Positions 1 to 21,774 of a stretch of DNA of 52,384 nucleotides are shown here, in pieces. Under the pieces are notes generated by a model. That model did not search any database, was not told the DNA's origin, and saw nothing but the letters and a program-made list of their open reading frames with translations. The stretch's first letter is position 1. Each line of letters starts with the position of its first letter. The stretch covers positions 1 through 52,384 of the forward strand of contig CANFJV010000004.1 of the NCBI GenBank assembly GCA_947447225.1. Direction: 5' to 3'. The DNA is from Acidimicrobiaceae bacterium. GTDB lineage: Bacteria; Actinomycetota; Acidimicrobiia; Acidimicrobiales; RAAP-2. The translations under genes were made by a program, and so were the position numbers.

Positions 1-1248
1 ACCACCATTTCGGGCTTTGCATTCACGCCAGTTGAGGCGCTCCTTGTCCTCGGAGTCATCTGCTCTCGATTTGGTCCACAGTCGCTGACGCGTCGTCGGC
101 CCACCATGTTGATGACCATTGGTGTGATTTTTGGCCTAACCCTTCTCGGACCACTTGTGCGAAGTAAGCAGCCAATGAATATGTTCGTGCTGGCTGCGGT
201 GGTATTTGCGATGGCATACCTAGTCGCGCTTTCGGCTCGAGAGCCACGTGGTCGCCAGGTGGTCATGATGAGTGTTGTTGCATCGTGTGCCATCCAAGGT
301 GGCCTTGGAATTTGGGAATTTCTGAGTCACCACAAACTCAGCCTCTACTCGTCTGGTGGCTCCTCACAATATGACGGGAGTTACTTTTTTCAATTTCAAG
401 GACTCTTTCGCGTCAGCGCGGCATTCCCAAATCCGATTGCGATGGGGAACGTCCTTGCGATGTCTATTCCAATCCTCATTGTGCTGGTTGCGACAATGAA
501 GGGGACAAAGCAACAGGCAGTGCTCTTCATTGCCGGTCTCCTCATCATCTTCGGAGCCGTTGCAACCCTGTCGCGATCAAGTTGGCTTGCCATTGGTGCA
601 GGCGTGCTCATTATGTTCTTTGCCCTTGGAGATAAGCGCGTGATGAAGCCAATCGCTGGACTCTCGCTGATGATTGTTCTTGGAATTACCGTTGGTCAGA
701 ATTTCGCTGGCCCTGCGCTCCTTGCTCGCGCAAACACGATCTTCGGCGGCTCAACGGCGGCAACGGGAACTTCGATTGGAGACTTCACTCGACAAGTGGT
801 GCAAGGCGGCGCACTTGGGCTTTTCCGTGCGCATCCGCTAACGGGCGTAGGACTTGGAAACATTGCCCCCTATCTTGGTGGAACTTCTGTGAGAGATGGT
901 CAAAACGCGCAGAATTACCTCTATCAAATTCTGGCCGAAGCAGGTCTTTTTGCTGGCCTCGCCCTCGTTGGACTCATGGTCTCATTAGCTTGGGTTGCGT
1001 TAAGGGCATACATTCCCTATCGCAATATTGCCGCGATGCTGCTCGCAGAAATTGGGGTCATAGTGGTCGTGTGCTCCACCGATGCGAACTTTCGCTCAGC
1101 CCAAGTTGCAGTCTTTGCTGCAATTATTTTTGGACTCGGCGCCTCGCTTGGCACTTCCGGAGAAGTTCGGCGTGCTCATAATCGAGCACTTGCGACAACC
1201 ACGTTGCCGCGAGATCTCGAACCTGCTCAAGTGGGAGCTCGTTCGTGA
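1..1248 (+). CDS. O-antigen ligase/polymerase-like membrane protein (5' partial)
   Basis: The frame is open from the first base of the window to the stop at 1246-1248, so the gene starts upstream; an internal ATG at 106 is not a credible start. The visible 415 residues form about ten hydrophobic segments. Two stretches are typical of the Wzy_C/O-antigen ligase family: a loop around codons 136-158 with a Phe-Pro-Asn-Pro core after an aromatic-rich external segment, and a His-Pro-Leu-Thr-Gly-Val-Gly-Leu-Gly-Asn motif around nt 832-865. Such proteins polymerise or transfer lipid-linked glycans at the outer face of the membrane. The stop overlaps the GTG start of the flippase gene by 4 bp, which fits a polysaccharide operon. 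Polymerase versus ligase cannot be decided from the sequence. Confidence 0.85.
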   Translation, partial: TTISGFAFTPVEALLVLGVICSRFGPQSLTRRRPTMLMTIGVIFGLTLLGPLVRSKQPMNMFVLAAVVFAMAYLVALSAREPRGRQVVMMSVVASCAIQGGLGIWEFLSHHKLSLYSSGGSSQYDGSYFFQFQGLFRVSAAFPNPIAMGNVLAMSIPILIVLVATMKGTKQQAVLFIAGLLIIFGAVATLSRSSWLAIGAGVLIMFFALGDKRVMKPIAGLSLMIVLGITVGQNFAGPALLARANTIFGGSTAATGTSIGDFTRQVVQGGALGLFRAHPLTGVGLGNIAPYLGGTSVRDGQNAQNYLYQILAEAGLFAGLALVGLMVSLAWVALRAYIPYRNIAAMLLAEIGVIVVVCSTDANFRSAQVAVFAAIIFGLGASLGTSGEVRRAHNRALATTTLPRDLEPAQVGARS

Positions 1249-2795
1249 CGAAGAACGAAGATGACCACGGCGATGCTCAGGAAAAGGGTGTGCCTTCCTC
1301 AACGCCAGATGCCAAATCGATAGATCCTGACCTTGCGTTGAACCTGGCGGGGGCGACAGGGGTCGGCGAATCTTCAACTTCTCGCTCGATTGCGCAATCG
1401 TCGCTCTATTTGGTTATTCGACGGTTTGGCATCCTCGCGATGTCATTTTTTTCGACGATTGTGATCACCAGGAAGCTTGGTCCAGGTGATTATGGAGATC
1501 TTCAATCAGCACTCGCAACCTGGGGTCTGCTCCTTTCGATCTGCGATTTTGGTATTTCCATGGCGCTTGTCCGAGAGATGGCGCAAAACCCCAAGAATCA
1601 CTCTTCGCTCCTCCGGGCAAGTTTCTTCGTGCAAGGCGTATGGTCCATTGCCATTGCCATTGCGATGGTCGGAATCGCGCTGCTGACGTCATCAGGATTT
1701 TCGCAACACGCGCAAATCCTTCTCATCCTTGCTCCAAGTGTGCTCTTCTCGGCACTCTCTTCGGGGAAGACCTTGTTTCGCGTTCGTTATCAAATGGGTT
1801 ATGCCGTCATGGTTGATTTGGTGACGACCTCAATACAAGTGCTCTTGAGCATTGCCGTTGCGCTCCTTGGGTATGGGGCGGTCGGTGTTGCGGTGGTCAT
1901 TTCAGTTACCTCCATCGTGAATTCAGGGTGGATTGGCTGGGCGGCACATCGAAGGTCAAAGGCACTTGACCAGCAAAGTTGGCGGGCTTCTGCGAGGAAA
2001 TTGGTGCGTGCGGCGCTTCCCCTTGGCTCAATGTCGATGCTATCGGGGGCGTATTTGACGATCGATCTGGTCATCTTGGGATTTATCGGCGCAAGTGGGT
2101 CGGTTGGAAATTACGCCGCTGCAGTCAAGGTGGTGTCGTTGGCAAGCACGTTGCCCGGACTTCTCGTGAGTGCAGCTGTTCCAGGATTCTCAGAAAATGC
2201 AGCGAATGAAGAAGTTTCTGGACAACTCATGAGTCGCCTTCTGCATTGGATGGTGGCGTTTGCACTCCCAATATTTATTGCCATTGTGCTGTTTGCCAAA
2301 CCGATCACGTTGGTGATTTTTGGTCGTGGTTTTCTCAATGCAACCACGCTCATCTCGGTGCTCGCCATTGCCGGACTTGTCGGAACCATCAGTCAACTGT
2401 TCAGTGTCATGTTGGTCGCAGCTGCGAAAATGCGGCCGTTGATTGTGCAGAACACCATCGCCACGGTGTTCAACGTCTCATTCAATATTGCCCTGATTCC
2501 GGTTTTCGGGGCGCTTGCGTGTGCGTGGTTAACCGTCGCAACCGAGTGCATTGTCTGTCTTGGCTCAGCATGGACCTTGTTTCACACCATGCGCTTCAGG
2601 TTCCCCGTCGCAGCTGCGAGGACGGCATTCATCGTTGTGGTTGTTAGTACTGCATCTGGAGCACTGTTGCTGATGGTCAATACGACACTGTCCATCATTG
2701 TGTACTCCCTGGTTCTTTTGGCTGGGCTGGTGGTCACGGGGAGCTGGCCAGTTGAGTTTCATCCAAAGAAATTCCTGAAAGTTCGAGCAACATGA
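1245..2795 (+). CDS. Wzx-like polysaccharide flippase (MATE/MVF superfamily)
   Basis: 516 residues from a GTG that overlaps the previous stop (GTGA). A hydrophilic N-terminal tail of about 45 residues precedes some 12-14 membrane helices. The first helix pair contains the pattern common in RfbX/MurJ-like transporters: Ser-Leu-Tyr-Leu-Val-Ile-Arg-Arg-Phe-Gly, then Leu-Gly-Pro-Gly-Asp-Tyr-Gly. The family flips undecaprenyl-linked oligosaccharides to the outer leaflet. It sits directly between the polymerase/ligase-like gene and two glycosyltransferases, which supports a role in surface glycan export. The substrate is unknown. Confidence 0.88.
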   Translation: MTKNEDDHGDAQEKGVPSSTPDAKSIDPDLALNLAGATGVGESSTSRSIAQSSLYLVIRRFGILAMSFFSTIVITRKLGPGDYGDLQSALATWGLLLSICDFGISMALVREMAQNPKNHSSLLRASFFVQGVWSIAIAIAMVGIALLTSSGFSQHAQILLILAPSVLFSALSSGKTLFRVRYQMGYAVMVDLVTTSIQVLLSIAVALLGYGAVGVAVVISVTSIVNSGWIGWAAHRRSKALDQQSWRASARKLVRAALPLGSMSMLSGAYLTIDLVILGFIGASGSVGNYAAAVKVVSLASTLPGLLVSAAVPGFSENAANEEVSGQLMSRLLHWMVAFALPIFIAIVLFAKPITLVIFGRGFLNATTLISVLAIAGLVGTISQLFSVMLVAAAKMRPLIVQNTIATVFNVSFNIALIPVFGALACAWLTVATECIVCLGSAWTLFHTMRFRFPVAAARTAFIVVVVSTASGALLLMVNTTLSIIVYSLVLLAGLVVTGSWPVEFHPKKFLKVRAT

Positions 2796-3889
2796 GAATT
2801 GCGATGGTCGTCACGGCGCAAACTCGTGGCGGCGTGTACACCAATGTCAAAGAGCTCGTTGGTGGACTCACCCAAGTCGGTGACGACGTTGTGCTTTTTG
2901 TCGACGAAGTGTTGAGGGATGATTTTCGAAACGATTTGCGCGATTTGGCCAACGTGGAGATCCACGGACTCGATCAAGCGGCGCGTGAGCACTGTGATGT
3001 TTGGCATCTACATCTGCACGATTCATTCAACCGTCGCGCACTGCAGTTGCAGTTGAAGCGAGTGCTTTTCAAAGGGAGACGGTCGATTCTCATAGATGAG
3101 CATCTTCCACGAACGCCTCGATCTGATTCGGCCCTCGACTATGAGCCTGATACGCCACCAGGAAGCAAGAAGCCCTTTGCGAAACAACTGAAGGGGATCA
3201 TCAAGCGTCTGCAATACCTCCTTTCAGGTTCAGTGGTGGTGCATTCGAAGGCATCGGCAGATTTCCTATCTGCTCGGTATGGGACCAACGTGCACCGAAT
3301 GATTCTTGTTCCCCTTGGCGTCCCTGCAACACCTGAATTGGAGCCGAAAGCTGCTTCTTCGACACTTCAGATTTTGCTCCTCGCGGTGGTGTGTTTTCGA
3401 AAGGGGCACGATCTTCTCATTGAAGCAACGAGATTTGCTACGAAAAGGTGGGAAGTGACCTTCGTTGGTGGTGGTTCTCAGCTTGACGCCTTCAAGGAGC
3501 TCGCAAAAGCACGCGGGCAACAACCGATTGTTTTCTTGGGCCAAGCAAACGAGCCGGGCGATGCGATTGCAGCTTGTGATGTGCTCTGCGTGCCATCGAG
3601 ATCAGATGCTTCATCGATCTCTGCGCTCGAAGCAATGATGGCAGGTAAGCCGGTTGTTGTTTCACGAGCCGATGGTGTGCCAGAGCTCGTTCACGATGGC
3701 GTGACGGGACTTGTTGTTGATGCTGAAGACCCACGAGCCTTGGCGGAGGCATTAGACAAAATGGCAGAGGAGACCTTTCGATTGCAGATGGGTAAGGAAG
3801 CTCGAAAGGTCATGCTGGCCACTCGTACGACCGGTCACATGATTCGCGCAACACGTGATGCCTACAAGGCGATGATGTTCAATGGCTGA
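2792..3889 (+). CDS. Glycosyltransferase, GT4 family (group 1)
   Basis: 365 residues, starting at an ATG that overlaps the flippase stop (ATGA). The N-terminal half has a GT-B acceptor-side Rossmann start (MRIAMVV, then a Gly-Gly-Val loop). The C-terminal half has the GT4 donor-site signature Ser-Ile-Ser-Ala-Leu-Glu-Ala-Met-Met-Ala-Gly-Lys-Pro-Val-Val near residues 269-284, containing the EX7E-type glutamates, followed by Asp-Gly-Val-Pro-Glu-Leu-Val. It probably adds one sugar to the lipid-linked glycan made by this operon, at the cytoplasmic face. Donor and acceptor cannot be predicted. Confidence 0.88.
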   Translation: MRIAMVVTAQTRGGVYTNVKELVGGLTQVGDDVVLFVDEVLRDDFRNDLRDLANVEIHGLDQAAREHCDVWHLHLHDSFNRRALQLQLKRVLFKGRRSILIDEHLPRTPRSDSALDYEPDTPPGSKKPFAKQLKGIIKRLQYLLSGSVVVHSKASADFLSARYGTNVHRMILVPLGVPATPELEPKAASSTLQILLLAVVCFRKGHDLLIEATRFATKRWEVTFVGGGSQLDAFKELAKARGQQPIVFLGQANEPGDAIAACDVLCVPSRSDASSISALEAMMAGKPVVVSRADGVPELVHDGVTGLVVDAEDPRALAEALDKMAEETFRLQMGKEARKVMLATRTTGHMIRATRDAYKAMMFNG

Positions 3890-4955
3890 TGGACGCACGC
3901 TGCACGTAACGCCCTTGACCTTCGGAGAAGGAGGCATTTACGGCGGGGGAGAACGCCTGCCCTTTGGCTTGGCAACAGCGATGGCGTCAAAGATTCCAAC
4001 GAGTTTGCTGGGCTTTGGAAAGAAGCATGCACGAGTACGCCATGGCGACCTTGAGATCATCACCGTGCCTATTCGCGGTCGCTATCACCGAAGTGATCTC
4101 AACCCAATCTCAGAGCGCTACGTGGCCGAACTCTGGAAAGCAGATCGCATCCACACGCATCAGTTCGAGACCTTCACGACCACACAGGCATTGCTGATGG
4201 CGAAGATTCGAAAGGTCGAGGTCTTCACTACCGACCATGGAGCCTTGGTTCACAATCTTCGAAGGCGTCTGGGCGTAGAAAAGTACTTAACCAAACATCT
4301 TGCGGTCTCGCAATTCTCTGCCGATCTTCACCCATCCCTTGCCGATCGTTCACCCGTGATCTATGCCGGTGTTGATACGGACCGCTTTACGCCAGGCCAA
4401 CTCCCAAGAGAGAACAAAGTGGTGTTTCTCGGTCGCATGCTTCCGCACAAAGGCATTGATGTCCTCATTCAAGCCATGCCGGCCAACGTGCCACTTCATG
4501 TTTACGGCCGAGCCTATGACGCTACGTATTTTGATCGTTTGAAGAACTTGGCCGCTGACAAGACGGTGATTTTTCATTCTTCCGCTTCGGATGAAGACGT
4601 CCTTTACGCACTTCAAACTGCGGCAATTTCCGTCCTGCCGACCTTGGCGGGTGACACAAATCTCGTTCCACCACCTCGAACAGAGTTATTTGGCCTCGCG
4701 CTCGTTGAAGCGATGGCCTGCGGCACGCCGGTGATTGCAACACGAGTTGGAGGGATGCCAGAAGTTGTGGCCAATGGAGAAGCTGGCGTTCTCGTGGGGT
4801 CCGGTTCTGTCGCGGAGCTGAGCGAGGCGCTTAGCCGGTTGCTTAGCGACCATGCACTTCGAGCATCACTTGGTGATGCTGGTCTTCAGCGTGTCCGCTC
4901 GATGTTCACCTGGGATGCCGTCGCGGACAGATGCCTTGTGGAGTATGGGCTGTAA
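3882..4955 (+). CDS. Glycosyltransferase, GT4 family (group 1)
   Basis: 357 residues; the ATG lies 8 bp inside the upstream glycosyltransferase, indicating translational coupling. A Gly-Gly-Ile-Tyr-Gly-Gly-Gly-Glu-Arg acceptor-side loop occurs near residues 17-25. The C-terminal donor motif Glu-Leu-Phe-Gly-Leu-Ala-Leu-Val-Glu-Ala-Met-Ala-Cys-Gly-Thr-Pro-Val-Ile is clear, with the two EX7E glutamates, followed by Gly-Gly-Met-Pro-Glu-Val-Val. It is the last gene of the polysaccharide operon in this window. Sugar specificity is unknown. Confidence 0.88.
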   Translation: MADGRTLHVTPLTFGEGGIYGGGERLPFGLATAMASKIPTSLLGFGKKHARVRHGDLEIITVPIRGRYHRSDLNPISERYVAELWKADRIHTHQFETFTTTQALLMAKIRKVEVFTTDHGALVHNLRRRLGVEKYLTKHLAVSQFSADLHPSLADRSPVIYAGVDTDRFTPGQLPRENKVVFLGRMLPHKGIDVLIQAMPANVPLHVYGRAYDATYFDRLKNLAADKTVIFHSSASDEDVLYALQTAAISVLPTLAGDTNLVPPPRTELFGLALVEAMACGTPVIATRVGGMPEVVANGEAGVLVGSGSVAELSEALSRLLSDHALRASLGDAGLQRVRSMFTWDAVADRCLVEYGL

Positions 4956-5030
4956 GTAGCTGATCAGATCGTTGTTGAACAACGCCGGCGAGGTGCGGAG
5001 CGCACTTGTTGGTGATTCGATGTTCTCTGT

Positions 5031-5195: not shown

Positions 5196-5225
5196 ATATT
5201 CGGATTCTTTGAAATTTGAAGGCGC

Positions 5226-5231
5226 TAATCT
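5226..5231 (+). promoter_or_regulatory. -10 element TAATCT, leaderless-type, for the propeller gene
   Basis: TAATCT ends 7 nt before the ATG at 5239, so transcription should begin at or next to the A of the start codon. This supports ATG 5239 over the TTG at 5209. No good -35 box is seen. Confidence 0.45.
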
Positions 5232-5238
5232 CCACAAC

Positions 5239-8200
5239 ATGGTTGCGAATCGACCGCGAAAAACTGGCGTAGGTTTCCTCGTTTTCTCTCTGGCTGCCAG
5301 CGCACTTTCGCTGGTCTCTGTTGTTGCGATCGATGGTCTTGCTGGGGCTGACGCACTGCAAAACAATGGATCCACGAGTCGAAATGCGTGGTATCAAACC
5401 GAGACGGCACTCACTCAGGCATCGGTCACGTCAGGGTTGTTCGGCCAGCGGTTTGCCACGCATCTCGAAGGATCGATTATGGGCCAACCCGTTGTCGTGA
5501 ATGGGACGTTGGTGGTAGGCACGGAAGAGGACCGTATCTACGGACTCAATCCGCTCACCGGTGCGGTGAAGTGGTCTCGAGTGATTGGTACGCCAATCCA
5601 ACAAGCGGCACAACAAGGGTGCGGCGACCTCCAAGTCGCGGGGATTACTGCGAGCCCAGTTGCTGATGGGGTCTCAGGAGCGGTCTATTTCTTGGCAAAG
5701 ACCTATTCCAATGAAGTTGCCTCGGGCATGGTGTTCAAGTTGCACAAAGTTGAGGCGGCAACAGGGAAGGAATTCGAAAATTTCCCTGTCACCTACGGCG
5801 GGGTTGCCGACAATGACCCAAATGCTGACTTCGACGCAGAGTGGCAAACCCAACGCACTGGCCTTCTCCTCGATCAAGGCGTGATTTACGCAGGTTTTGC
5901 GTCAGTGTGTGATCATGGCGACTTCAAAGGTTGGGTCTTTGGCACCGATGGTTCAACTGGGGAGCACACCGCCCGGTTCGTCACGGATGCTGGTACGGCA
6001 TCTGGTGGTGGCGTGTGGCAGTCAGGAGTAGGAATTGCTTCAGACGGTCCGGGGCAGCTTCTACTCACCACCGGTAATGGCACGACGCCAAAACTTGGAA
6101 CGCCAGGAAACGAGCCTCCAGGAGCACTCGGGCAGTCAGTAGTCCGATTGGTGGTGCAAAGCGACCGAACGCTGAAAGCGACAGATTTCTTTACTCCGGT
6201 AACGGCTGACCAATTAAATGAGGTTGACGGCGACCTCGGTTCTGGTGGGCCTGTTATTTTGCCAAGTTCATTTCATACGACTGGTGCATCTGAGATCTTG
6301 GCCAACGGGAGCAAGGGTGGATACCTGTACTTGCTGAATGGAAAGAATCTCGGCGGCATCGGAACTGGAAAGAACGGCGGCGATGCAACGGTCGCAACGC
6401 TTGGTCCGATTGGCGCGATGTTTGGAAGTCCCGTTGCGTGGTCAGGCGGCGGGGGATACCTTTACACCTCTGCTGTTTTGTCTGGCCTTGAGCAATCGGG
6501 TTCTGGACCATCGCTCGCTGCGTATAAGTGGGGGGTCACCTCAAGTGGGGATGCTGCGATCACCCTTGCTGGTTCGGCTCGCGAGCAGCCTGGTTTCGGA
6601 TCGAGTTCTCCCGTGCTTTCTTCCAACGGAACCTCCACGAGCTCGGCCATTCTCTGGCAAATCTGGAAGCCAATGGTTGGTGGTAACGCTGAACTTCGTG
6701 CGTTCAATCCAATTCCCGCAAATGGGCAGCTCCAGCAATTGTGGTCGGCTCCAGTGGGCCCGCTGTCGAAGTTCTTAAATCCGGTCATTGACAGCGGGTC
6801 TGTCTATGTCGGGTCAAATGATGGAACGCTCTTTGGTTTCGGATTGGCGGCAAAGGCACCACTTGTTGCGACATCGTTGACCATTTTGCCGACCCCTGCG
6901 GGAACGGCCAAGACCTCCAATGTGACGATTACCGCGAACAGGCCGGTGACCATTCGATCGCTTTCAAGTTCTTCAACTCGCTTCGTTCTCTCCAAAGTTG
7001 CGCTTCCGAAGGTCCTTGCTGCTGGAGGTTCGCTTACGATTCCAGTGACCTTTAAGCCCACTACTTCTGGGTCAACGTCTGCTTCGCTCGTGGTCGCCAT
7101 GAACGGTGAAGCAAATGTCGCCTTGCCACTGAATTCCTACGGAATCTACGTTGGCCCCCGACTCACTCTGTCCTCACCAATTTTGGCCTTCGGAAATGGA
7201 GGACGCGGTGGGACCCCTCTGACCGCTTCTTTCAGCGTGACCAATGTGGGAAGTGCTTCTGCGCTCATTACGAGCGCAAGCGGTCTGAAGGCTCCATTTG
7301 TTGTCACGTCGGCGCTCGTGGGGAAGACCATTCTTCCTGGCCGCAGTTTGCCGGTCATCGTGAAAATGACACTTGGGACACTTGGACAGTTCACCTCCTC
7401 GCTGGCAATTGCGATCAAGGGTCAAACCATTTCGATGCCACTCGTTGGAAGTGTTGGGCAACCTGCGCTGGTGACGGTTGAGCCGGCGTCAATTGCCTTT
7501 GGAGAAGTTCCCCTTGGCCAATCCGTGGTCAGAACAATCACCTTGACGAACACAGGAAATACCCCGGCGAATTGGTATGCCTCTCGCCCATACTTCTTGG
7601 GATCACAAGGAGCCTTCTTTCTCGTTGGTTCACAGACCTCCTCAACCATTCCTGCACACTCCTCGGTGTCGCTCAAGATTCGGTTTACCCCTGACCCTGA
7701 AGAGCCTGATGACAAGGGCATGCTGCAGTTCAACATTGATGACGGCCTCGTTCCTCGCCAGGTGTGGTTCAGTGGTGCCGTAGGGGCCCCCGTCCACCCT
7801 GTGTTGAATGTCGCCTCGATCAATGTCTATCCAGGCGATTCGACGGCATGGGTTCCGGTTGATATTTCGCCGACACCCATCGACACGGTGACCTTCACCG
7901 TGAAAACGATCGATGGTACGGCAACAGCAGAAAGTGGGGCCTATCAAGCCACATCTGGCATCCAAACAAGTCTCGCTGGCGGGATGCGACGGGCATATAT
8001 CCCAATTCCTGTAGACCCCTCACTTGGAGCCGGAAAGAGTTTCTCGGTCAGTCTGAAGAGCGCAAACGGTGCGGCGCTTGGTAGCGACGGGACGGTCTTC
8101 ATCCGTGGAAGTAGAACCGATGGAGTCGCGTTTGTCACTGCCGACGCGGCTGAATTTGTCGTGAGCCAGGTTGAAGACCAACAAGTGCAAGTCCCAGTCG

Positions 8201-8793
8201 TGGTCGCACCCATCCTCAGCGCTCCAGTGACGTGTCGGGCAACAACCGCAGATGGTTCGGCAACCACTGCAAATGGTGATTACGTCGGCCTTTCCAACCA
8301 ACTCGTGACGATTCCGCCCACTGGAATCGGCTCGGTTTCCATTAAGGTCAAGGCAAAAGCGACGCTTTTCAGTGAACGGAATTTCTCTGTCACCATTTCG
8401 CAGTGCAGCGGAGATGGAGCACTCAGCTTGGTTCGATCGACCGCAACAGTGACCTTGCTCGGCCAACTCAACCGTGCATCATTGGCCGAGTTGCAACTTC
8501 AAAAAGTCGTGATTATTGCGCCAGGTATTGGGAAAACTGGCTACCAAAATGTGGTTGTTCGAAATGTTGGGGGCTCCTCCATCACCTTTCGGGTCACGAC
8601 GCCAATTTCCGACGCACACTTCGGGCTCGGGGCACCACTGACGGCTCCGATCACGATTGCCGCAGGAAGTACCTACACGATGAGACTGAGTTACCGCGCA
8701 ACCTCTACTGCACTCACCCGAGCAAGCTTGGCTGTGCAGGCATCGACCGATGAGTTCCCACAAATCATCAATTTGCTAGGCGAGTCAAACTAG
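5239..8793 (+). CDS. Exported PQQ-type beta-propeller protein with ASH and Calx-beta-like domains
   Basis: 1184 residues. The start ATG 5239 is chosen because a TAATCT box lies 7 nt upstream and because it gives a clean signal sequence: basic MVANRPRKTG, a hydrophobic core to about residue 28, and an Ala-Gly-Ala-Asp-Ala region. Residues about 40-540 carry PQQ/WD-like blade motifs (Tyr-Gly-Leu-Asn-Pro-Leu-Thr-Gly, then Val-Gly-Ser-Asn-Asp-Gly-Thr-Leu). Residues about 540-850 hold three immunoglobulin-like ASPM-SPD-2-Hydin repeats (Ile-Ala-Phe-Gly-Glu-Val-Pro-Leu-Gly, then Leu-Thr-Asn-Thr-Gly). Residues about 850-1080 contain two Calx-beta-like units with Asp-Gly-Thr/Ser-Ala and Asn-Gly-Asp-Tyr. 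A last Ig-like domain ends the protein. There is no LPXTG motif or C-terminal membrane helix, so it is probably secreted or held by surface glycan. The function is unknown; it may be an adhesin or matrix scaffold rather than an enzyme. Confidence 0.8.
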   Translation: MVANRPRKTGVGFLVFSLAASALSLVSVVAIDGLAGADALQNNGSTSRNAWYQTETALTQASVTSGLFGQRFATHLEGSIMGQPVVVNGTLVVGTEEDRIYGLNPLTGAVKWSRVIGTPIQQAAQQGCGDLQVAGITASPVADGVSGAVYFLAKTYSNEVASGMVFKLHKVEAATGKEFENFPVTYGGVADNDPNADFDAEWQTQRTGLLLDQGVIYAGFASVCDHGDFKGWVFGTDGSTGEHTARFVTDAGTASGGGVWQSGVGIASDGPGQLLLTTGNGTTPKLGTPGNEPPGALGQSVVRLVVQSDRTLKATDFFTPVTADQLNEVDGDLGSGGPVILPSSFHTTGASEILANGSKGGYLYLLNGKNLGGIGTGKNGGDATVATLGPIGAMFGSPVAWSGGGGYLYTSAVLSGLEQSGSGPSLAAYKWGVTSSGDAAITLAGSAREQPGFGSSSPVLSSNGTSTSSAILWQIWKPMVGGNAELRAFNPIPANGQLQQLWSAPVGPLSKFLNPVIDSGSVYVGSNDGTLFGFGLAAKAPLVATSLTILPTPAGTAKTSNVTITANRPVTIRSLSSSSTRFVLSKVALPKVLAAGGSLTIPVTFKPTTSGSTSASLVVAMNGEANVALPLNSYGIYVGPRLTLSSPILAFGNGGRGGTPLTASFSVTNVGSASALITSASGLKAPFVVTSALVGKTILPGRSLPVIVKMTLGTLGQFTSSLAIAIKGQTISMPLVGSVGQPALVTVEPASIAFGEVPLGQSVVRTITLTNTGNTPANWYASRPYFLGSQGAFFLVGSQTSSTIPAHSSVSLKIRFTPDPEEPDDKGMLQFNIDDGLVPRQVWFSGAVGAPVHPVLNVASINVYPGDSTAWVPVDISPTPIDTVTFTVKTIDGTATAESGAYQATSGIQTSLAGGMRRAYIPIPVDPSLGAGKSFSVSLKSANGAALGSDGTVFIRGSRTDGVAFVTADAAEFVVSQVEDQQVQVPVVVAPILSAPVTCRATTADGSATTANGDYVGLSNQLVTIPPTGIGSVSIKVKAKATLFSERNFSVTISQCSGDGALSLVRSTATVTLLGQLNRASLAELQLQKVVIIAPGIGKTGYQNVVVRNVGGSSITFRVTTPISDAHFGLGAPLTAPITIAAGSTYTMRLSYRATSTALTRASLAVQASTDEFPQIINLLGESN

Positions 8794-9561: not shown

Positions 9562-10899
9562 TTAGGCATTCTCCATTGCGGTAAGCAAGTAGGAGCGGAG
9601 TTCGCTGATGGCAATGCGGATCTGCATCGTAGTGTCGCGGTCTCGAAGCGTCACGCAGTGGTCTTCCAACGTGTCAAAGTCGACCGTCACGCACCACGGC
9701 GTGCCCACCTCGTCTTGTCGTCGATAGCGCTTTCCAATGGACTGAGTGACGTCGTAGTCGCAGAGGAAGTGCTCTTGCAACATTGCAAGAACTTCACGGG
9801 CAGGCGCCTCAATTTCTGGCTTCTTCGACAACGGCAGGATGGCGACTTGGATTGGAGCCAACTTCGGGTGAAGGCGCAAGAGTGAACGAGTCTCGCCACC
9901 CACTTCATCTTCGGTGTACGACGCCAACAAAAAGGCCATCATCGCTCGAGTCGCTCCAGCAGCAGGCTCGATGACGTATGGCGTGTAACGAGTGCTCGTT
10001 GCCTGATCGAAATACTCAAGCTTTTCGCCAGACGCCGAAGCATGAGCGGTCAGGTCATAGTCGCCACGGTTGGCGACGCCTTCGAGTTCATCGAATCCCC
10101 ACGGAAAGGCGAATTCAATGTCGGTTGTGCCCTTGGAGTAGTGAGCAAGGTCCTCCGGCGCGGCCTCGTTCTTCCGTAATTTTTCCTCGGGAAGTCCAAG
10201 TCGGAGGTACCAGTTGAACCGTTCTTCAATCCAGTAGCGGTACCACTGTTCAGCATCTTCTGGCGGGACGAAGAATTCGAGCTCCATTTGTTCGAACTCT
10301 CGTGTTCGAAACACAAAGTTGCCAGGGGTGATTTCGTTGCGGAAGGACTTTCCAATTTGCGCGATGCCAAATGGCGGCTTCTTGCGCATCGTGGTGAGCA
10401 CATTTGCGAAGTTGGTGAACATCCCCTGTGCCGTTTCGGGTCGAAGGTAGGCCGTCGCGCCATCACCTTCAACAGGGCCGGCTTGGGTTTTGAACATAAG
10501 GTTGAACGCGCGAGGTTCGGTGAACTCGGTTGACTTACAGTTGGGGCAGACGCCATTGATCTTGTCTTCACGCCAGCGCTCGTTGCACTTGCGGCAATCA
10601 ACGAGAGGGTCGGTGAATGTCTCGAGGTGGCCGGATGCAGCCCAGATGGCTGGAGGGCTCAAGATGGCAGCATCAAGTCCTACGACATCATCACGACGCT
10701 GCACAATGGCTTTCCACCACTGTTCTTTGACGTTGCGGAGCATTTGCACACCCAAGGGGCCGTAGTCATAGGTCGACCGAAATCCACCGTAAATTTCAGC
10801 CGACTGAAAGATGAAACCTCGGCGCTTGCACAGTGAGGTGACCTTTTCTAAGAGGTCGTTTGGCGTTGAGCGTTCATCAAGATTCGAAGGAGTAGCCAC
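9562..10899 (-). CDS. glyQS: Glycine--tRNA ligase (single-chain, dimeric type)
   Basis: 445 residues from a GTG start that has TAGCCT exactly 6 nt upstream. Class II aminoacyl-tRNA synthetase features are present: an N-terminal Tyr-Gly-Pro-Leu-Gly motif 1 region, motif 2 with Ser-Phe-Arg-Asn-Glu-Ile, and Arg-Pro-Glu-Thr-Ala-Gln-Gly just before it. A four-cysteine insertion (CxxC about residue 104, CxxC about residue 118) resembles that of the Thermus-type enzyme. The C-terminal anticodon-binding domain ends with the Arg-Asp-Arg-Asp-Thr-Thr-Met-Gln region. It charges tRNA-Gly in the cytoplasm. The length is normal for the homodimeric alpha2 form. Confidence 0.96.
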   Translation of the reverse strand: MATPSNLDERSTPNDLLEKVTSLCKRRGFIFQSAEIYGGFRSTYDYGPLGVQMLRNVKEQWWKAIVQRRDDVVGLDAAILSPPAIWAASGHLETFTDPLVDCRKCNERWREDKINGVCPNCKSTEFTEPRAFNLMFKTQAGPVEGDGATAYLRPETAQGMFTNFANVLTTMRKKPPFGIAQIGKSFRNEITPGNFVFRTREFEQMELEFFVPPEDAEQWYRYWIEERFNWYLRLGLPEEKLRKNEAAPEDLAHYSKGTTDIEFAFPWGFDELEGVANRGDYDLTAHASASGEKLEYFDQATSTRYTPYVIEPAAGATRAMMAFLLASYTEDEVGGETRSLLRLHPKLAPIQVAILPLSKKPEIEAPAREVLAMLQEHFLCDYDVTQSIGKRYRRQDEVGTPWCVTVDFDTLEDHCVTLRDRDTTMQIRIAISELRSYLLTAMENA

Positions 10900-17169: not shown

Positions 17170-17245
17170 TCCCAGGTAGCTCAATTGGCAGAGCAAGCGA
17201 CTGTTAATCGCTAGGTTGCAGGTTCGAGTCCTGCCCTGGGAGCCA
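17170..17245 (+). tRNA. tRNA-Asn (anticodon GTT), CCA encoded
   Basis: The acceptor stem TCCCAGG (17170-17176) pairs with CCTGGGA (17235-17241), followed by discriminator G and an encoded CCA. The D stem is GCTC/GAGC. The anticodon stem AGCGA/TCGCT encloses the loop CTGTTAA with GTT at 17203-17205. The T loop is GGTTCGAGTC. All four arms fold. Confidence 0.97.
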
Positions 17246-17344: not shown

Positions 17345-17602
17345 TCAAATGATCGGGATTCTTTTGACCTTCAACGTTGTAGACGTTGTGGCCTTCACGG
17401 TCGTTGTGGTGGTTGAGGTCGTTGAGGTTGTTGTTGCCACGGTTGGCATAGTCACAATTGCACCAGGACTACTTTCCGTGGACGAGTTTCCGAGAAGTAA
17501 GAAGCCAAGAATCAGCCCAGCGCTGATGAGGAGCGCAATGGCCGTTGAGATCTTGGCCACCGTTGCTTTCTTTTGAAACTGGTGCTCGCTGACATCGTTC
17601 AT
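17345..17602 (-). CDS. Small single-pass membrane protein with Ser/Thr-rich tail
   Basis: 85 residues starting at ATG 17602, preceded on the minus strand by AGGTGGAG with 6 nt spacing. The same frame is open further upstream, but that part lacks protein-like composition and is left out. The N-terminal 18 residues are polar and basic. One hydrophobic helix spans about residues 19-38. A tail of about 45 residues follows, dominated by Thr, Ser and Val, ending Lys-Val-Lys-Arg-Ile-Pro-Ile-Ile. The tail looks like an extracytoplasmic stalk that could be O-glycosylated. I do not recognise a family. It is divergent from the DUF4012 gene. Confidence 0.7.
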   Translation of the reverse strand: MNDVSEHQFQKKATVAKISTAIALLISAGLILGFLLLGNSSTESSPGAIVTMPTVATTTSTTSTTTTTVKATTSTTLKVKRIPII

Positions 17603-17782
17603 GGGGTTCTCCACCTCTTGAATTTGGCAATCGAATGCTATCGGTCTCCTGTTTGTCACGCGGAAAGACCTGCGGACGCTGGGGTTTGAAGATCGTGAAG
17701 GCTTGGTCGCAATGGAGAGCATTCTCTGGCGAAGTTCAGCAGATGCCTCAAGAATTTCTCGACCGAGTGGAAAGATGCACCC

Positions 17783-19576
17783 GTGACGTTCCGCCACACC
17801 TCTCGACGCAAACTGGTCATTGGCGCGATGGTCGCGGCACTTTTGTTTCTTGCAATCCTTGGCGCCCTTGCCCTTCGAGATGCAGTTTCTCTTCGTAGTC
17901 AAGCTGCAGAGGCGATCAAAGCACTCAGTCGCGTTGAGCACGATCCCAACGTTCTCACCACCCATGAGGGTCGAATATCGGTGGAGCGAGATCTCGACAC
18001 GGCAAGGCGCATTGCCGAACAAAGTGCCATGGCCATTGACCAGTCATTCAGCCTTTCCGTGATTGGAGCGATTCCGTATCTTGGTAGAGCAACCCATGGC
18101 GCCAAGGAGTTGGCAACCGATGCGGCAACAACGGCAACGCTGCTCAGTGGAATTGTGAACGACGCTGATGCAGTGGTTCGCCAAAGTAGTGACCACCGCA
18201 TTGACTGGGAGAAGTTGCCTCAACTCATTGCCGATGCAACGTCGACCTCAACCTCGCTCAGGCAACTCCTCGACCACGGGAAAGGACTTTGGGGGCCGGT
18301 CGGTGCAAAGCGATCAACCTTTACGACCGCTGTTCGCTCACTTGCGAACCGACTCGATGATGTTGCCGCTGGTGGAAAGCTCGGGGCGTCACTGCTTGGG
18401 GCGAATCACCCTTCTCGGGTCCTGGTCCTGGCAGCAAACAATGCAGAAATGCGGGCACAGGGTGCATTCTTAAGTTACGCACTTCTCGATTTTCACCACG
18501 GGAGCATTACCCACGTCACGACGGGTTCGCTTTCGGAACTTGAGCGCTCCATTGCCTTGGCAAGTTCACCACCGACAGCACAGATGTTCGTGAACAATGG
18601 AGCAACGCGTCTGTGGTCGGCCATCAACATGACGGCAAATTTCTCCTGGACGGGTCACGTTGCCGCAGAGAAACTGCATGCCACACTGGGATTTCGTCCG
18701 GACTTTGTTGTTGGCGTCGATGTGGTGACTTTGCAAGAACTTCTCGGAGCAGTGGGGAGTGTGAAGGTCTCCTCACTACGAGAGCCACTCACCAAGTCCA
18801 ATGTCGCGACGGTGTTGCTGAAGTCGCTCTATGAACGTTTTACTCCTGACCAGAGGACAAAGCGTCTTGAGGTGCTGTCGCAAGTCATTGCCGCAGCAAT
18901 TGGTAAAGCAGTCGAGCCCACGACGAATCCCGTTTCCGTTACTCGGTCCTTTGCACGAGCAATTGGCGGAAGACACCTCCTGCTGTGGAGCACAGATCCA
19001 GCAGCACAAGCGGCAATTCGTGAACTGAACGCAAGCGGCGAGCTTGACCAACATCACCGTGATGTCACCTTTTCTGTTGCGGTTGAAGCTGCAGTAGCGG
19101 CCAAGATGGATGCGTTTGATGTGCACTGTTCAACGTCCTACAAAGTCGTCGTAGCGCCCGATCGAAGTGCAATGGTCGATCTTGCCGTCACCATCGCAAA
19201 CGATGCGCCGCGCAACCTCCGTCCCGGTTCCTATATCTATGGCCCCGATGGATGGAACGCCCATCAGCCTGGCGAGTATCTCGCCAATGTCTTTGTCTGG
19301 ACGCCACTCGGCTCGGCCCAACAAGGAGCTCCAATCGATGGAGGTCTTGAACTTCGAGCCACGTCAGTCGATCTCCTTCCAGGCAAGTCGGCGGTAGTGC
19401 ACTTTTATTCTCATCTCAAGGCGTCTGTCGACGGCAGGGTTCGATTGCGCCTTGTCCCGCAACCTCGGCTCTTTCCGACCCAAACAAACGTCACCGTTGT
19501 CGACGGGAATCAGTCGAAAACTTGGTCGTTCCCCCTCGCGTCAACCCAAGAACTCCTCCTGAGAGGGAAGAGGTAA
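17783..19576 (+). CDS. DUF4012 domain-containing membrane-anchored protein
   Basis: 597 residues from GTG 17783. A basic N-terminus is followed by one signal-anchor helix (about residues 12-31) and a helical segment to about residue 200. The DUF4012 core starts near residue 212 with Val-Leu-Val-Leu-Ala-Ala-Asn-Asn-Ala-Glu-Met-Arg, then Gly-Phe-Arg-Pro-Asp-Phe-Val-Val-Gly-Val-Asp, the typical family sequence. In other bacteria the family is linked to surface polysaccharide genes, and it resembles LytR-CpsA-Psr-type extracellular domains only loosely. The bulk should face outside the cell. The exact activity is not known. No clear leaderless box precedes it; GGAAAG 9-10 nt upstream may serve as a weak SD. 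Confidence 0.85.
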   Translation: MTFRHTSRRKLVIGAMVAALLFLAILGALALRDAVSLRSQAAEAIKALSRVEHDPNVLTTHEGRISVERDLDTARRIAEQSAMAIDQSFSLSVIGAIPYLGRATHGAKELATDAATTATLLSGIVNDADAVVRQSSDHRIDWEKLPQLIADATSTSTSLRQLLDHGKGLWGPVGAKRSTFTTAVRSLANRLDDVAAGGKLGASLLGANHPSRVLVLAANNAEMRAQGAFLSYALLDFHHGSITHVTTGSLSELERSIALASSPPTAQMFVNNGATRLWSAINMTANFSWTGHVAAEKLHATLGFRPDFVVGVDVVTLQELLGAVGSVKVSSLREPLTKSNVATVLLKSLYERFTPDQRTKRLEVLSQVIAAAIGKAVEPTTNPVSVTRSFARAIGGRHLLLWSTDPAAQAAIRELNASGELDQHHRDVTFSVAVEAAVAAKMDAFDVHCSTSYKVVVAPDRSAMVDLAVTIANDAPRNLRPGSYIYGPDGWNAHQPGEYLANVFVWTPLGSAQQGAPIDGGLELRATSVDLLPGKSAVVHFYSHLKASVDGRVRLRLVPQPRLFPTQTNVTVVDGNQSKTWSFPLASTQELLLRGKR

Positions 19577-19618
19577 GTCCAGAAGTCTTGTGACTAGAGT
19601 TCGGCCAAAAAATTGGAG

Positions 19619-19648
19619 TAGAATTGCGTCCAAAGCGGTTGAGTGAGG
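19619..19648 (+). promoter_or_regulatory. -10 TAGAAT and SD for the repeat-protein operon
   Basis: TAGAAT (19619-19624) would give a leader of about 27 nt that contains GAGG (19645-19648) 9 nt before ATG 19658. No matching -35 box was found. Confidence 0.35.
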
Positions 19649-19657
19649 TTCCTTCCA

Positions 19658-20368
19658 ATGCGGACATACCGAATGACAATTGTCTTCGCCTCGTTATCGC
19701 TTGGCCTACTCATTGTCCTTTTGTCCATGATGGGGTCCTCGAATGCAGCGACCATCCGACCAGTTGGCTACCCAGGAACAACGGTGGTTCCTGTCACGGA
19801 GCCAACAGTTCCTGTCACGAAACCAACAGTTCCCGTCACTGAACCAACAGTTCCCGTCACTGAACCAACAGTTCCGGACGAACCTTCGACAACACTCTCC
19901 GAAGATGTTCCCTACACCTCATATGATCCGAAAAATCTGTCTCCTGAGGAATCCTCAAAGAACACCTCGGCGGTTGTCAGTGTGATTGCGACCGCAGCCG
20001 CCGCCAGTGCCGCCGCCGCCGCCGCTAGTGCCGCTAGTGCTGCGAGTGCTGCAGGAGCCGCTGGTGGAGCTGCTGGAGCAGCCGGTGGAGCAGCCGGTGG
20101 AGCAGCGGGAGGTGCTGCCGGTGGAGCCGGTGGAGCCGGTGGTGGCGCTGGTGGCGCTGGTGGATCCGGTGGTTCGGGCGGGTCAGGTGGTGGCTCGTCT
20201 ACGGATCGTGTTGAGGGACTTGATGACGGTGGTGATGACGCCGATGCAGGAGACGACGGTCCTGACGACGGTGGAGATGATCCAGAGGCCACCGATGATG
20301 GTGGCGACCCACCTGAGGGCCGTAGCGAAGAAGAAGAAGAAGAATTCGAAGGCGAGAGCGACCAATGA
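19658..20368 (+). CDS. Exported low-complexity repeat protein (PVTEPT, Ala/Gly, acidic)
   Basis: 236 residues from ATG 19658, chosen for the GAGG at 9 nt and the signal sequence. A hydrophobic segment of about 20 residues ends Ser-Ser-Asn-Ala-Ala, a likely cleavage site near residue 27. Residues 44-71 are four copies of a Val-Pro-Val-Thr-Glu/Lys-Pro-Thr heptad. Residues about 111-178 are almost only Ala, Gly and Ser, shifting from Ala-rich to Gly-rich to Gly-Ser. Residues about 186-236 are strongly acidic (Asp-Gly-rich, then a run of six Glu). This looks like a disordered surface or linker protein. I recognise no family. The stop overlaps the start of the multipass membrane protein gene by 4 bp, so the two are co-translated. 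Confidence 0.75.
   Translation: MRTYRMTIVFASLSLGLLIVLLSMMGSSNAATIRPVGYPGTTVVPVTEPTVPVTKPTVPVTEPTVPVTEPTVPDEPSTTLSEDVPYTSYDPKNLSPEESSKNTSAVVSVIATAAAASAAAAAASAASAASAAGAAGGAAGAAGGAAGGAAGGAAGGAGGAGGGAGGAGGSGGSGGSGGGSSTDRVEGLDDGGDDADAGDDGPDDGGDDPEATDDGGDPPEGRSEEEEEEFEGESDQ
19787..19870 (+). repeat. Four tandem 21-bp repeats
   Basis: Units at 19787-19807, 19808-19828, 19829-19849 and 19850-19870, beginning GTTCCTGTCAC or GTTCCCGTCAC, differ at a few positions. Each encodes one Val-Pro-Val-Thr-Xaa-Pro-Thr heptad, and a partial fifth unit follows. Because 21 is a multiple of 3, copy-number change would alter the protein's length without shifting the frame. Confidence 0.95.
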
Positions 20369-21606
20369 CCGGCGGAGGCGAATGGGATCTTGGACACCAT
20401 GTTGTCCATCTTCATGATGGACATGCACACGGGCTCAATGACATTGAAGCTGGAATTGGCGATGAGTCACGGACGTGGAAGTTTTATGGCTGGCAACACG
20501 GAGATAAATTCTTTCGGTCGTTCCCCCCGTTAGCTGCCAAGGTGACGCCAATGGTGTCCTTGGCTATTGACGATGCGAAGTATCTCCAGGCAATGGTCGG
20601 CGGATTCGGTTTTCTGTTGCCGATTGCTGGATTTATTTTGGGATTGATGTCGACGTTGAAGTTTGGTGGCTTTGTGGTGCCTCCCGACACGACGATGTAT
20701 CTGGTCATCATGGGGCTGAGCATTTTTAGTGCCTTTGCAGGGATGATGGCCCTTGTTCCAATCATCGTTGGTGCAATCGTGACTGGCAACCTCACCACGA
20801 TTTCAAGTGCACTGACGCTCTTTCTTCTCGGCTGCATCTGGATTTCAGGCCCCCAACTTGCGAGGCGCTTTCGGCCACTCAATGATCACCGAACGATGGA
20901 CAATGAGCCGTTTGAAAAATGGTGGATCGTGGTGGGCGACTACGTGATCCAACTAGTGATGACGATGTTCATTCTCGGAAAACTCACCATCGTGTTACCC
21001 ATCGTTTGCGGGTTGAATGTGCCAGCTGCTCAACACGAACCCGCAGTGTGGGTTCTCACCTTTGTCACAGTGCTGCTTCGCCAGATGCTTGAAACGGTCG
21101 CTCGTCATCACTATCCGCGCCGGCTTTTCCTGGTTACTAGCGACTTTCACGCTGTTGAGCGGAAAAAGGTCGTCAATGCTGCCTTCGTTGGCGGCGTTCA
21201 AATGCTGATCGTCTTCGGCGCCCTCTCATTGGTGCTCGGAAATTCTTGGCAAACATGGACTATTGGCGGAATCTACGGACTCATGCTCATTGTCGCTGGG
21301 CTCCGGAGAGAATTCCCTGAAAAGAAGTGGATCTATCGACTCACGCCAATTGGTATCGCCCGAATTGTCTTATTCATGCTGCTTGGAGAGTATTCCGCAA
21401 GCTATTTCATCGGACGTGGTGTAATCGATTCGGTGGAGTTGACCGGAGCGGTCTTCCTCGTCATCGCAATTTTCCTTCTGATTTTGACCTACTTCGGAAA
21501 GTTCCCCGGAGATCCATGGCCGAAAAACGTCATCTGGAAGATTCTTGGTGTCATCACGGTTGCGGTGCTTATTGGCCTCGGAACGGGAACACTCTCGCTC
21601 ATATAG
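20365..21606 (+). CDS. Multipass membrane protein with His-rich N-terminus, unknown function
   Basis: 413 residues; the ATG overlaps the upstream stop (ATGA). The soluble N-terminus carries six histidines within 12 residues (His11, 12, 15, 17, 20, 22) with Asp18 and Asp26, a plausible metal-binding patch. From about residue 75 onward there are roughly nine to ten hydrophobic helices. Polar loops between them include Arg-His-His-Tyr-Pro-Arg-Arg and Arg-Arg-Glu-Phe-Pro-Glu-Lys-Lys-Trp. I do not recognise a transporter family or any catalytic motif. Overlap with the acidic, repeat-rich exported protein implies a shared job, perhaps surface assembly or ion handling, but that is inference. Confidence 0.75.
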   Translation: MTGGGEWDLGHHVVHLHDGHAHGLNDIEAGIGDESRTWKFYGWQHGDKFFRSFPPLAAKVTPMVSLAIDDAKYLQAMVGGFGFLLPIAGFILGLMSTLKFGGFVVPPDTTMYLVIMGLSIFSAFAGMMALVPIIVGAIVTGNLTTISSALTLFLLGCIWISGPQLARRFRPLNDHRTMDNEPFEKWWIVVGDYVIQLVMTMFILGKLTIVLPIVCGLNVPAAQHEPAVWVLTFVTVLLRQMLETVARHHYPRRLFLVTSDFHAVERKKVVNAAFVGGVQMLIVFGALSLVLGNSWQTWTIGGIYGLMLIVAGLRREFPEKKWIYRLTPIGIARIVLFMLLGEYSASYFIGRGVIDSVELTGAVFLVIAIFLLILTYFGKFPGDPWPKNVIWKILGVITVAVLIGLGTGTLSLI

Positions 21607-21657
21607 TTTCGCTTAGCGTTCTTCAACCGGCGCAACGAGACCATGCCGCCGACCAAC

Positions 21658-21663
21658 TAGCCT
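21658..21663 (+). promoter_or_regulatory. -10 element TAGCCT for the CAT tRNA
   Basis: TAGCCT within CTAGCCTCA, 13 nt before the tRNA start; the nonamer is identical to the one before tRNA-Asn. Confidence 0.4.
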
Positions 21664-21676
21664 CACGAAGATATTC

Positions 21677-21749
21677 GGGGCTGTAGCTCAATGGTTAGAG
21701 CAGGGGACTCATAATCCCTTGGCTGAGGGTTCGATCCCCTCCAGCCCCA
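21677..21749 (+). tRNA. tRNA with CAT anticodon (elongator Met or Ile2)
   Basis: The acceptor stem GGGGCTG (21677-21683) pairs with CAGCCCC (21742-21748), with discriminator A and no encoded CCA. The D stem is GCTC/GAGC with the loop AATGGTTA. The anticodon loop CTCATAA has CAT at 21710-21712. The T arm is GAGGGTTCGATCCCCTC. An initiator tRNA is unlikely because the first acceptor pair is a G-C match and the anticodon stem lacks the three G-C pairs. The D loop length and anticodon arm resemble bacterial tRNA-Ile(CAU), which TilS modifies, but elongator tRNA-Met is not excluded. Confidence 0.92.
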
Positions 21750-21774
21750 CAGAGCACCATGCAGGACCGAAACC

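Follow-up and report, generated by a model that had tools for sequence, protein, structure and literature searches.

A recurrent stalk and platform gene pair, a candidate surface module, in a variable tRNA-to-tRNA interval of an Acidimicrobiaceae genome

Gram-positive bacteria carry multi-Fn3 surface proteins that are held in place by a sortase signal or a single helix. Surface anchoring by exosortases and archaeosortases relies on 8-TM proteins with a conserved Cys and Arg/His active site, and GT-C glycosyltransferases have an acidic motif in their first outside loop. DUF4012 proteins occur in a polysaccharide context: a passage in PMC5412050 places DUF4012 beside a priming transferase and wzz in the Bifidobacterium longum EPS/CPS locus.

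We analyzed a window of 52,384 nucleotides, which is contig 4 of an Acidimicrobiaceae genome of 2.04 Mb in 162 contigs. The first-pass annotation had described an envelope cluster in which four membrane or exported genes, none of known function, are flanked by two tRNA genes. ARAGORN, Rfam and a codon-usage gene caller confirmed this arrangement: exactly four genes were called from tRNA-Asn to tRNA-Met, spanning 17345-21606, all of them membrane or exported. The features of the interval are:

17170-17245, plus strand: tRNA-Asn(gtt), left border (ARAGORN and Rfam)
17345-17602, minus strand: P0001, 85 aa, a single TM followed by a Ser/Thr-rich tail (gene caller)
17783-19576, plus strand: P0002, 597 aa, N-terminal TM, DUF4012 core at residues 210-350 (PF13196)
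19643 (GTG) or 19658 (ATG) to 20368, plus strand: P0003, the stalk (gene caller)
19766-19777, plus strand: GYPG motif, residues 42-45 of P0003, right after the signal peptide
19787-19891, plus strand: 21-nt repeats of P0003 (7-aa PVTEPT), repeat family D2
19994-20194, plus strand: Ala-rich helix region and Gly run of P0003, repeat family D1
20365-21606, plus strand: P0004, the platform, 413 aa, multipass with 8-10 TM (gene caller)
21677-21750, plus strand: tRNA-Met(cat), right border (ARAGORN and Rfam)

The reading frames of P0003 and P0004 overlap by ATGA (gap of -4), an arrangement of translational coupling. A scan gave 2 promoter-like sites (1.7 expected) and 9 terminator-like sites (5.4 expected), none of which is relied on here.

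We surveyed the family to which P0004 belongs. A search with P0004 alone recovered the platform in 12 of 61 relatives. Within the taxonomic family, alignment A1 detected it in 35 of 172 genomes and, counted over the better genomes, in 6 of 21 genera; of 396 genomes sampled from the phylum, eight had it. The viral contigs searched contained no platform relative. The window's own genome holds four copies. We read 56 platform loci, the window included, taking copies with a domain of more than 300 residues. Ten stand alone, another ten stand alone but continue into an NHL-type extension at the C-terminus, 27 have a long extension on the N-terminal side and nine start with a short Ala/Arg-rich segment; the labels of L133, L173 and L190 come from genes that a contig end truncates. 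The C-terminal NHL propeller (10/56 copies) is about 520 residues long and matches PF01436 with an E-value of 6.5e-32 in L054, the one copy tested by Pfam, the other nine being assigned by the length of the extension. Compared to described NHL beta-propeller proteins (PF01436), the propeller here follows a multipass platform and has a separate stalk gene as partner.

Upstream DNA is readable in 17 of the 20 stand-alone copies, and a stalk gene lies directly 5' on the same strand in all 17. The stalk-to-platform gap ranges from -4 to +42 bp, apart from L060 (132 bp), where the start is shifted by unread bases. Fourteen of these partners could be read through the signal peptide to YPG, which is present in every one; the stalks of L045, L046 and L047 are cut by a contig end and were judged from their acidic or Ala-rich tail. 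The partners share a plan of signal peptide, GYPG, a domain of about 140 residues, a Thr/Pro linker, a Y(D/N)P-like motif, an Ala-rich helix and a Gly or acidic tail. Complete fused copies show the stalk plan in one open reading frame, as an exported part, a Y(D/S)P-like motif, the Ala-rich helix and a linker. Two fused proteins, L050 (8507-13741, 1744 aa) and L051 (305-5512, 1735 aa), contain 13 and 12 Fn3 domains, respectively, and both end in the multipass domain. They share long exported Fn3 arrays with the multi-Fn3 surface proteins of Gram-positive bacteria but have a C-terminal multipass anchor rather than a sortase signal or a single helix. In the nine copies that start with the short Ala/Arg-rich segment, of which a contig end truncates one, no stalk is visible, so it seems that the platform can function alone. 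Contigs end in or just before the stalk gene in L044, L045, L046, L047 and L173, as if repeats break the assembly, and stalk genes may be under-counted in metagenome genomes.

On the 56-row tree one well-supported group of 19 unites the stand-alone copies, with the exception of the long-branched and distant L133; the fused and short-N copies are on the other side, and the NHL copies make up one clade. The architecture labels need 5 changes on this tree, against 26.2 in shuffles. Distances between stalk ectodomains correlate with those between platforms (Mantel r of 0.918, 12 pairs, 0 of 5000 permutations as high), a correlation also expected from plain co-inheritance of neighboring genes.

P0003 reads, in order, signal peptide, GYPG, PVTEPT repeats, YDP, Ala-rich TM-like helix, Gly run and acidic tail. 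It shares with the other partners the signal peptide and YPG stalk just 5' of the platform but lacks their beta-rich ectodomain after YPG. The ectodomain HMM gave no match to P0003 up to an E-value of 1 with filters off; it matched 12 other partners whole and L048 in two pieces. Since P0003 has no detectable ectodomain, the window copy may be in decay or serve another purpose. P0004 lies on the longest branch of its clade (1.01), has Q75/S122 and is 36-43% identical to its nearest copies. Although intact and coupled, this copy has the appearance of a diverged paralogue of the C81 copy (L041), which is complete. The stalk gene of L048 (8820-10043, G022) is split over two frames, with positions 2-77 and 91-136 of the ectodomain HMM in separate open reading frames, for which a frameshift and an assembly error are both possible.

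P0004 has no Pfam or NCBIfam match, and 19 members of its alignment gave only one-off weak matches. Its profile found no match of weight among PDB sequences. We used AlphaFold to explore the structure from six sequences; the model (mean pLDDT of 57, pTM of 0.59) has some ten long membrane helices, of which one is interrupted by a break. Comparisons with this low-confidence model returned helical bundles only, the best with a Foldseek E-value of 0.15 and a VIA Z-score of 6.8 over 144 residues. A kinship with STING (best E-value of 0.0055 over one 74-column stretch) was taken as chance. We also rejected an exosortase or archaeosortase, since no Cys or His occurs among the columns conserved in at least 70% of the 56 rows, and a GT-C glycosyltransferase, since loop 98-108 has no acidic motif (0.03 Asp/Glu per residue over the 56 rows).

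The loop charges of the platform, averaged over the 56 rows, indicate its probable orientation. Lys and Arg amount to 0.13 per residue before helix 1, to 0.16-0.26 in loops 169-183, 248-268 and 314-333, and to 0.01-0.04 in loops 98-108, 141-145, 214-222, 291-296 and 349-357, and the rich and poor loops alternate over most of the domain. This pattern fits a cytoplasmic N-terminus and, provided that residues 109-140 form a hairpin, a C-terminus outside, which would place the NHL propeller outside too. The loop between helices 9 and 10 (377-391) is net negative, which sits poorly with a plain positive-inside interpretation of the final helices. Within the membrane domain, residue 192 is Asp in all 56 rows and residue 239 is Arg in 52 and Lys in four. 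The R75/D122 pair is present in 50 of the 56 rows, and the six exceptions, which combine Q with either S, N or D, all belong to the genus clade that holds P0004. This covariation hints at a salt bridge, and at no more than that, because the exception clade represents one or two events.

The pair is supported by gene order, coupling, fusion, co-occurrence, correlated divergence and conserved membrane charges. Because of the gene fusion, coupling and co-occurrence, P0003 and P0004 are likely to act together. Judged from its genes, P0003-P0004 is a real and recurrent two-gene module, predicted to lie at the surface, that takes the form of a fused protein in many relatives. We searched the literature on DUF4012, on Acidimicrobiia, Fn3 and NHL surface proteins and on polytopic fusions, and found no such module described. 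The surface module is apparently undescribed, and its platform is covered by neither Pfam nor NCBIfam. The first-pass proposal of an undescribed surface-assembly module is retained for P0003-P0004, which lies outside Pfam and NCBIfam, and abandoned for the four genes together. Thus, a vague envelope cluster gives way to a defined pair with a testable partner relation.

We propose that the window contains a variable tRNA interval with P0001, P0002 and a P0003-P0004 module in which the platform anchors a stalk or adhesin, and assign this reading a probability of roughly 0.6. The interval would hold three unrelated cargoes: the orphan P0001, the DUF4012 protein P0002 with a putative role in envelope polysaccharide, and the surface module. 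P0003 would be exported, with its N-terminal part outside, a single crossing by the Ala-rich helix, and the Gly/acidic tail inside. P0004 would form a platform of about ten helices whose N-terminus, by the loop charges, is inside and whose C-terminus is outside, and the stalk helix would most likely dock on it. We infer the physical docking, the topology and the adhesive or structural role of the pair. The docked pair would work like its fused relatives, as a multipass anchor holding a surface stalk or adhesin, and the window copy would be a diverged paralogue with a reduced stalk. Platform ectodomains would decide how uncultured Acidimicrobiia-like bacteria meet surfaces, particles and neighbors.

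A bolder version of this proposal sees in P0004 the first representative of an actinobacterial membrane machine, so far undescribed, which brings along its own surface protein, either fused or as the product of a coupled second gene. Asp192 and Arg/Lys239, joined in most copies by Arg75 and Asp122, would assemble, energize or sense through an exchangeable ectodomain, be it a stalk, an Fn3 array or an NHL propeller. We consider this conceivable, though rather unlikely.

The platform might instead act on its own stalk as an enzyme or transporter, modifying or exporting it; examples would be a glycosyltransferase or a lipid-carrier flippase that works on the Thr/Pro-rich linker. Such linkers adjoin the platform in most partners, and the invariant Asp192, the basic residue at 239 and the nearly invariant R75/D122 suggest more than anchoring. 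However, the platform shows no enzyme motif, with neither a conserved Cys or His nor a conserved acidic residue in the first loop. Its VIA matches to ArnT or OST (Z-scores of 5.2-5.3) stand among unrelated helical bundles, and no Pfam, NCBIfam or PDB-sequence match carries weight, which makes this an unlikely function. The swappable ectodomains, whether Fn3 arrays or the C-terminal NHL propeller, together with the invariant membrane charge pair and a charged cytoplasmic linker, would also suit a sensor, whose stalk and NHL propeller ectodomains would recognize a ligand or surface outside the cell and whose multipass domain would relay a signal or ion flux inward. Among the neighbors read by inspection, no output gene was seen repeatedly, be it for a kinase, a cyclase, an HTH protein or another type, and we regard a sensor as improbable.

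We compared the gene content between the two tRNAs in a genus sample of five genomes, as the first-pass annotation had suggested. In this sample rpoD was found at an E-value of 1e-100 in three of the five, the relevant tRNA-Met in all five, and both tRNAs on a single contig in two (G000, G002). The tRNAs are 996 bp apart in G002, and the space between them contains a single gene, for a 71-aa, single-TM protein. G004 is the nearest congener, with an rpoD 91% identical to that of the window, and its DNA similarity to the window ends exactly at the final base of tRNA-Asn (17245). Past this point lie a C5 DNA methyltransferase, an unknown gene, the N-terminus of a serine resolvase and then the contig end (L087, 7148-10641), and on another contig a gene fragment of a different kind precedes tRNA-Met. 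The unknown gene beside the methyltransferase is possibly its restriction partner. G001 and G003 have small genes ahead of tRNA-Met, one of them related to the small TM gene of G002 (47-52% identity); no platform gene was seen ahead of tRNA-Met in these two genomes, where the rpoD side is on separate contigs. After tRNA-Met, the order of a lipoprotein-like gene, MFS and PEPCK is as in the window in three of the four congeners, the contig of G001 being too short.

The content of the interval differs across the genus, and these comparisons support an interval that is variable. Insertion of a mobile genomic island at a tRNA gene, which the tRNA bracketing had earlier hinted at, would account for this difference among congeners and for the switch in G004, at the last base of tRNA-Asn, to a methyltransferase and a serine resolvase. 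The genes and domain matches of the window's tRNA-to-tRNA interval, however, include no integrase. A direct repeat of either tRNA 3' end was looked for in the interval and none was found, reproducing the earlier observation, and the base composition resembles that of the remainder of the window. The idea of an island thus keeps its variable gene content and loses its mobility features; we think it has a small chance of being correct. We call the interval variable and not a proven mobile island because it has neither an integrase nor a tRNA-end repeat.

P0001 has no convincing homolog in the genus, where all matches were of low complexity, and its best match outside had an E-value of 0.004. It appears to be an orphan and is the sole doubtful gene of the four. 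A family of small single-TM genes lies near tRNA-Met in three congeners (L086, 5791-6006; L089, 755-1228; L090, 2115-2621), with EELDH.EAG near the N-terminus in two and a similar motif in the third. These genes are on the strand opposite to tRNA-Met, the same orientation as P0001, and no homology between them and P0001 was seen.

P0002 is a member of PF13196, with an E-value of 1e-19 and 71.9 bits compared to the Pfam gathering cut-off of 28. The nearest DUF4012 genes of the genus (38% and 37% identity) adjoin glyS, whose window orthologue is at 9562, and then another exported protein. Other DUF4012 paralogues adjoin Wzz-like, Wzy-like, glycosyltransferase and LMW-PTP-like genes, named by sequence inspection, and one of the paralogues beside polysaccharide-type genes is in the window's own genome (L065). 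DUF4012 paralogues here are thus also near polysaccharide genes, as in the part of the B. longum EPS/CPS locus described in PMC5412050 and in keeping with a remark in PMC6744442, whereas P0002 itself sits in the tRNA-to-tRNA interval, apart from the window's glycosyltransferase genes at 1-5000. By its genomic settings, DUF4012 is best classed as a polysaccharide-locus family. The claim that none of the four genes has a known function needs a single amendment, for DUF4012, which has a known genetic context in polysaccharide loci.

We aligned the DUF4012 core with LCP (LytR-CpsA-Psr) domains and their flanks using hhalign, which gave a collinear match of 114 columns (score of 33.0, P of 3.2e-4, probability of 39%). 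None of 300 column or block shuffles reached this score (best 27.6), and reversed controls scored 12.1 and 12.6. The probability was just 6.5% against the shorter Pfam-range LCP domain (PF03816), and the Arg/Asp signature present in the LCP alignment (A4) is not evident in the DUF4012 alignment (A2). A PDB search with the DUF4012 profile returned nothing of weight, and an AlphaFold model of this part from one sequence (pLDDT of 36) was unusable for fold comparison; the viral contigs searched held no DUF4012 relative. DUF4012 may be a remote relative of LCP-type ligases, a lead that we treat as a weak but controlled hint. Were this kinship real, P0002 would take part in attaching polysaccharide, or in passing it on, on the external side of the membrane.

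The four genes are not linked as a set in the loci of relatives that were read. The DUF4012 HMM, run against 642 called proteins of the platform loci, found the window's own gene only (0 of 55 other loci), and the platform HMM found nothing among 139 called proteins of 10 DUF4012 loci (0 of 10). The pattern that the first-pass annotation had named as refuting a common module, genes scattered in relatives, is seen for DUF4012 and P0001, and P0003 and P0004 stay together, in favor of the pair. One functional surface-assembly operon of all four genes is highly improbable, being contradicted by this linkage of DUF4012 and platform in the window only and by P0001, an orphan on the opposite strand, despite the adjacency of the genes (P0002 and P0003 are 66-81 bp apart on one strand), the exported proteins that follow DUF4012 in five relatives (L022, L061, L062, L063, L069) and the weak resemblance of three such genes (L022, 3057-3854; L061, 8011-8808; L069, 9884-10474) to the stalk ectodomain (E-values of 5e-4 to 5e-3 in a small database). 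The neighborhood is a chance assembly of cargo with one interesting pair.

The exported genes after DUF4012 that resemble the stalk ectodomain possibly point to a loose link between DUF4012 and stalk systems. Elsewhere in the window, the product of 5209-8793 is exported, is 1194 aa long and combines HYDIN/ASH-type Ig-like, DUF1573 and Calx-beta domains; its gene adjoins glycosyltransferase and Wzx-like genes at 1245-4955.
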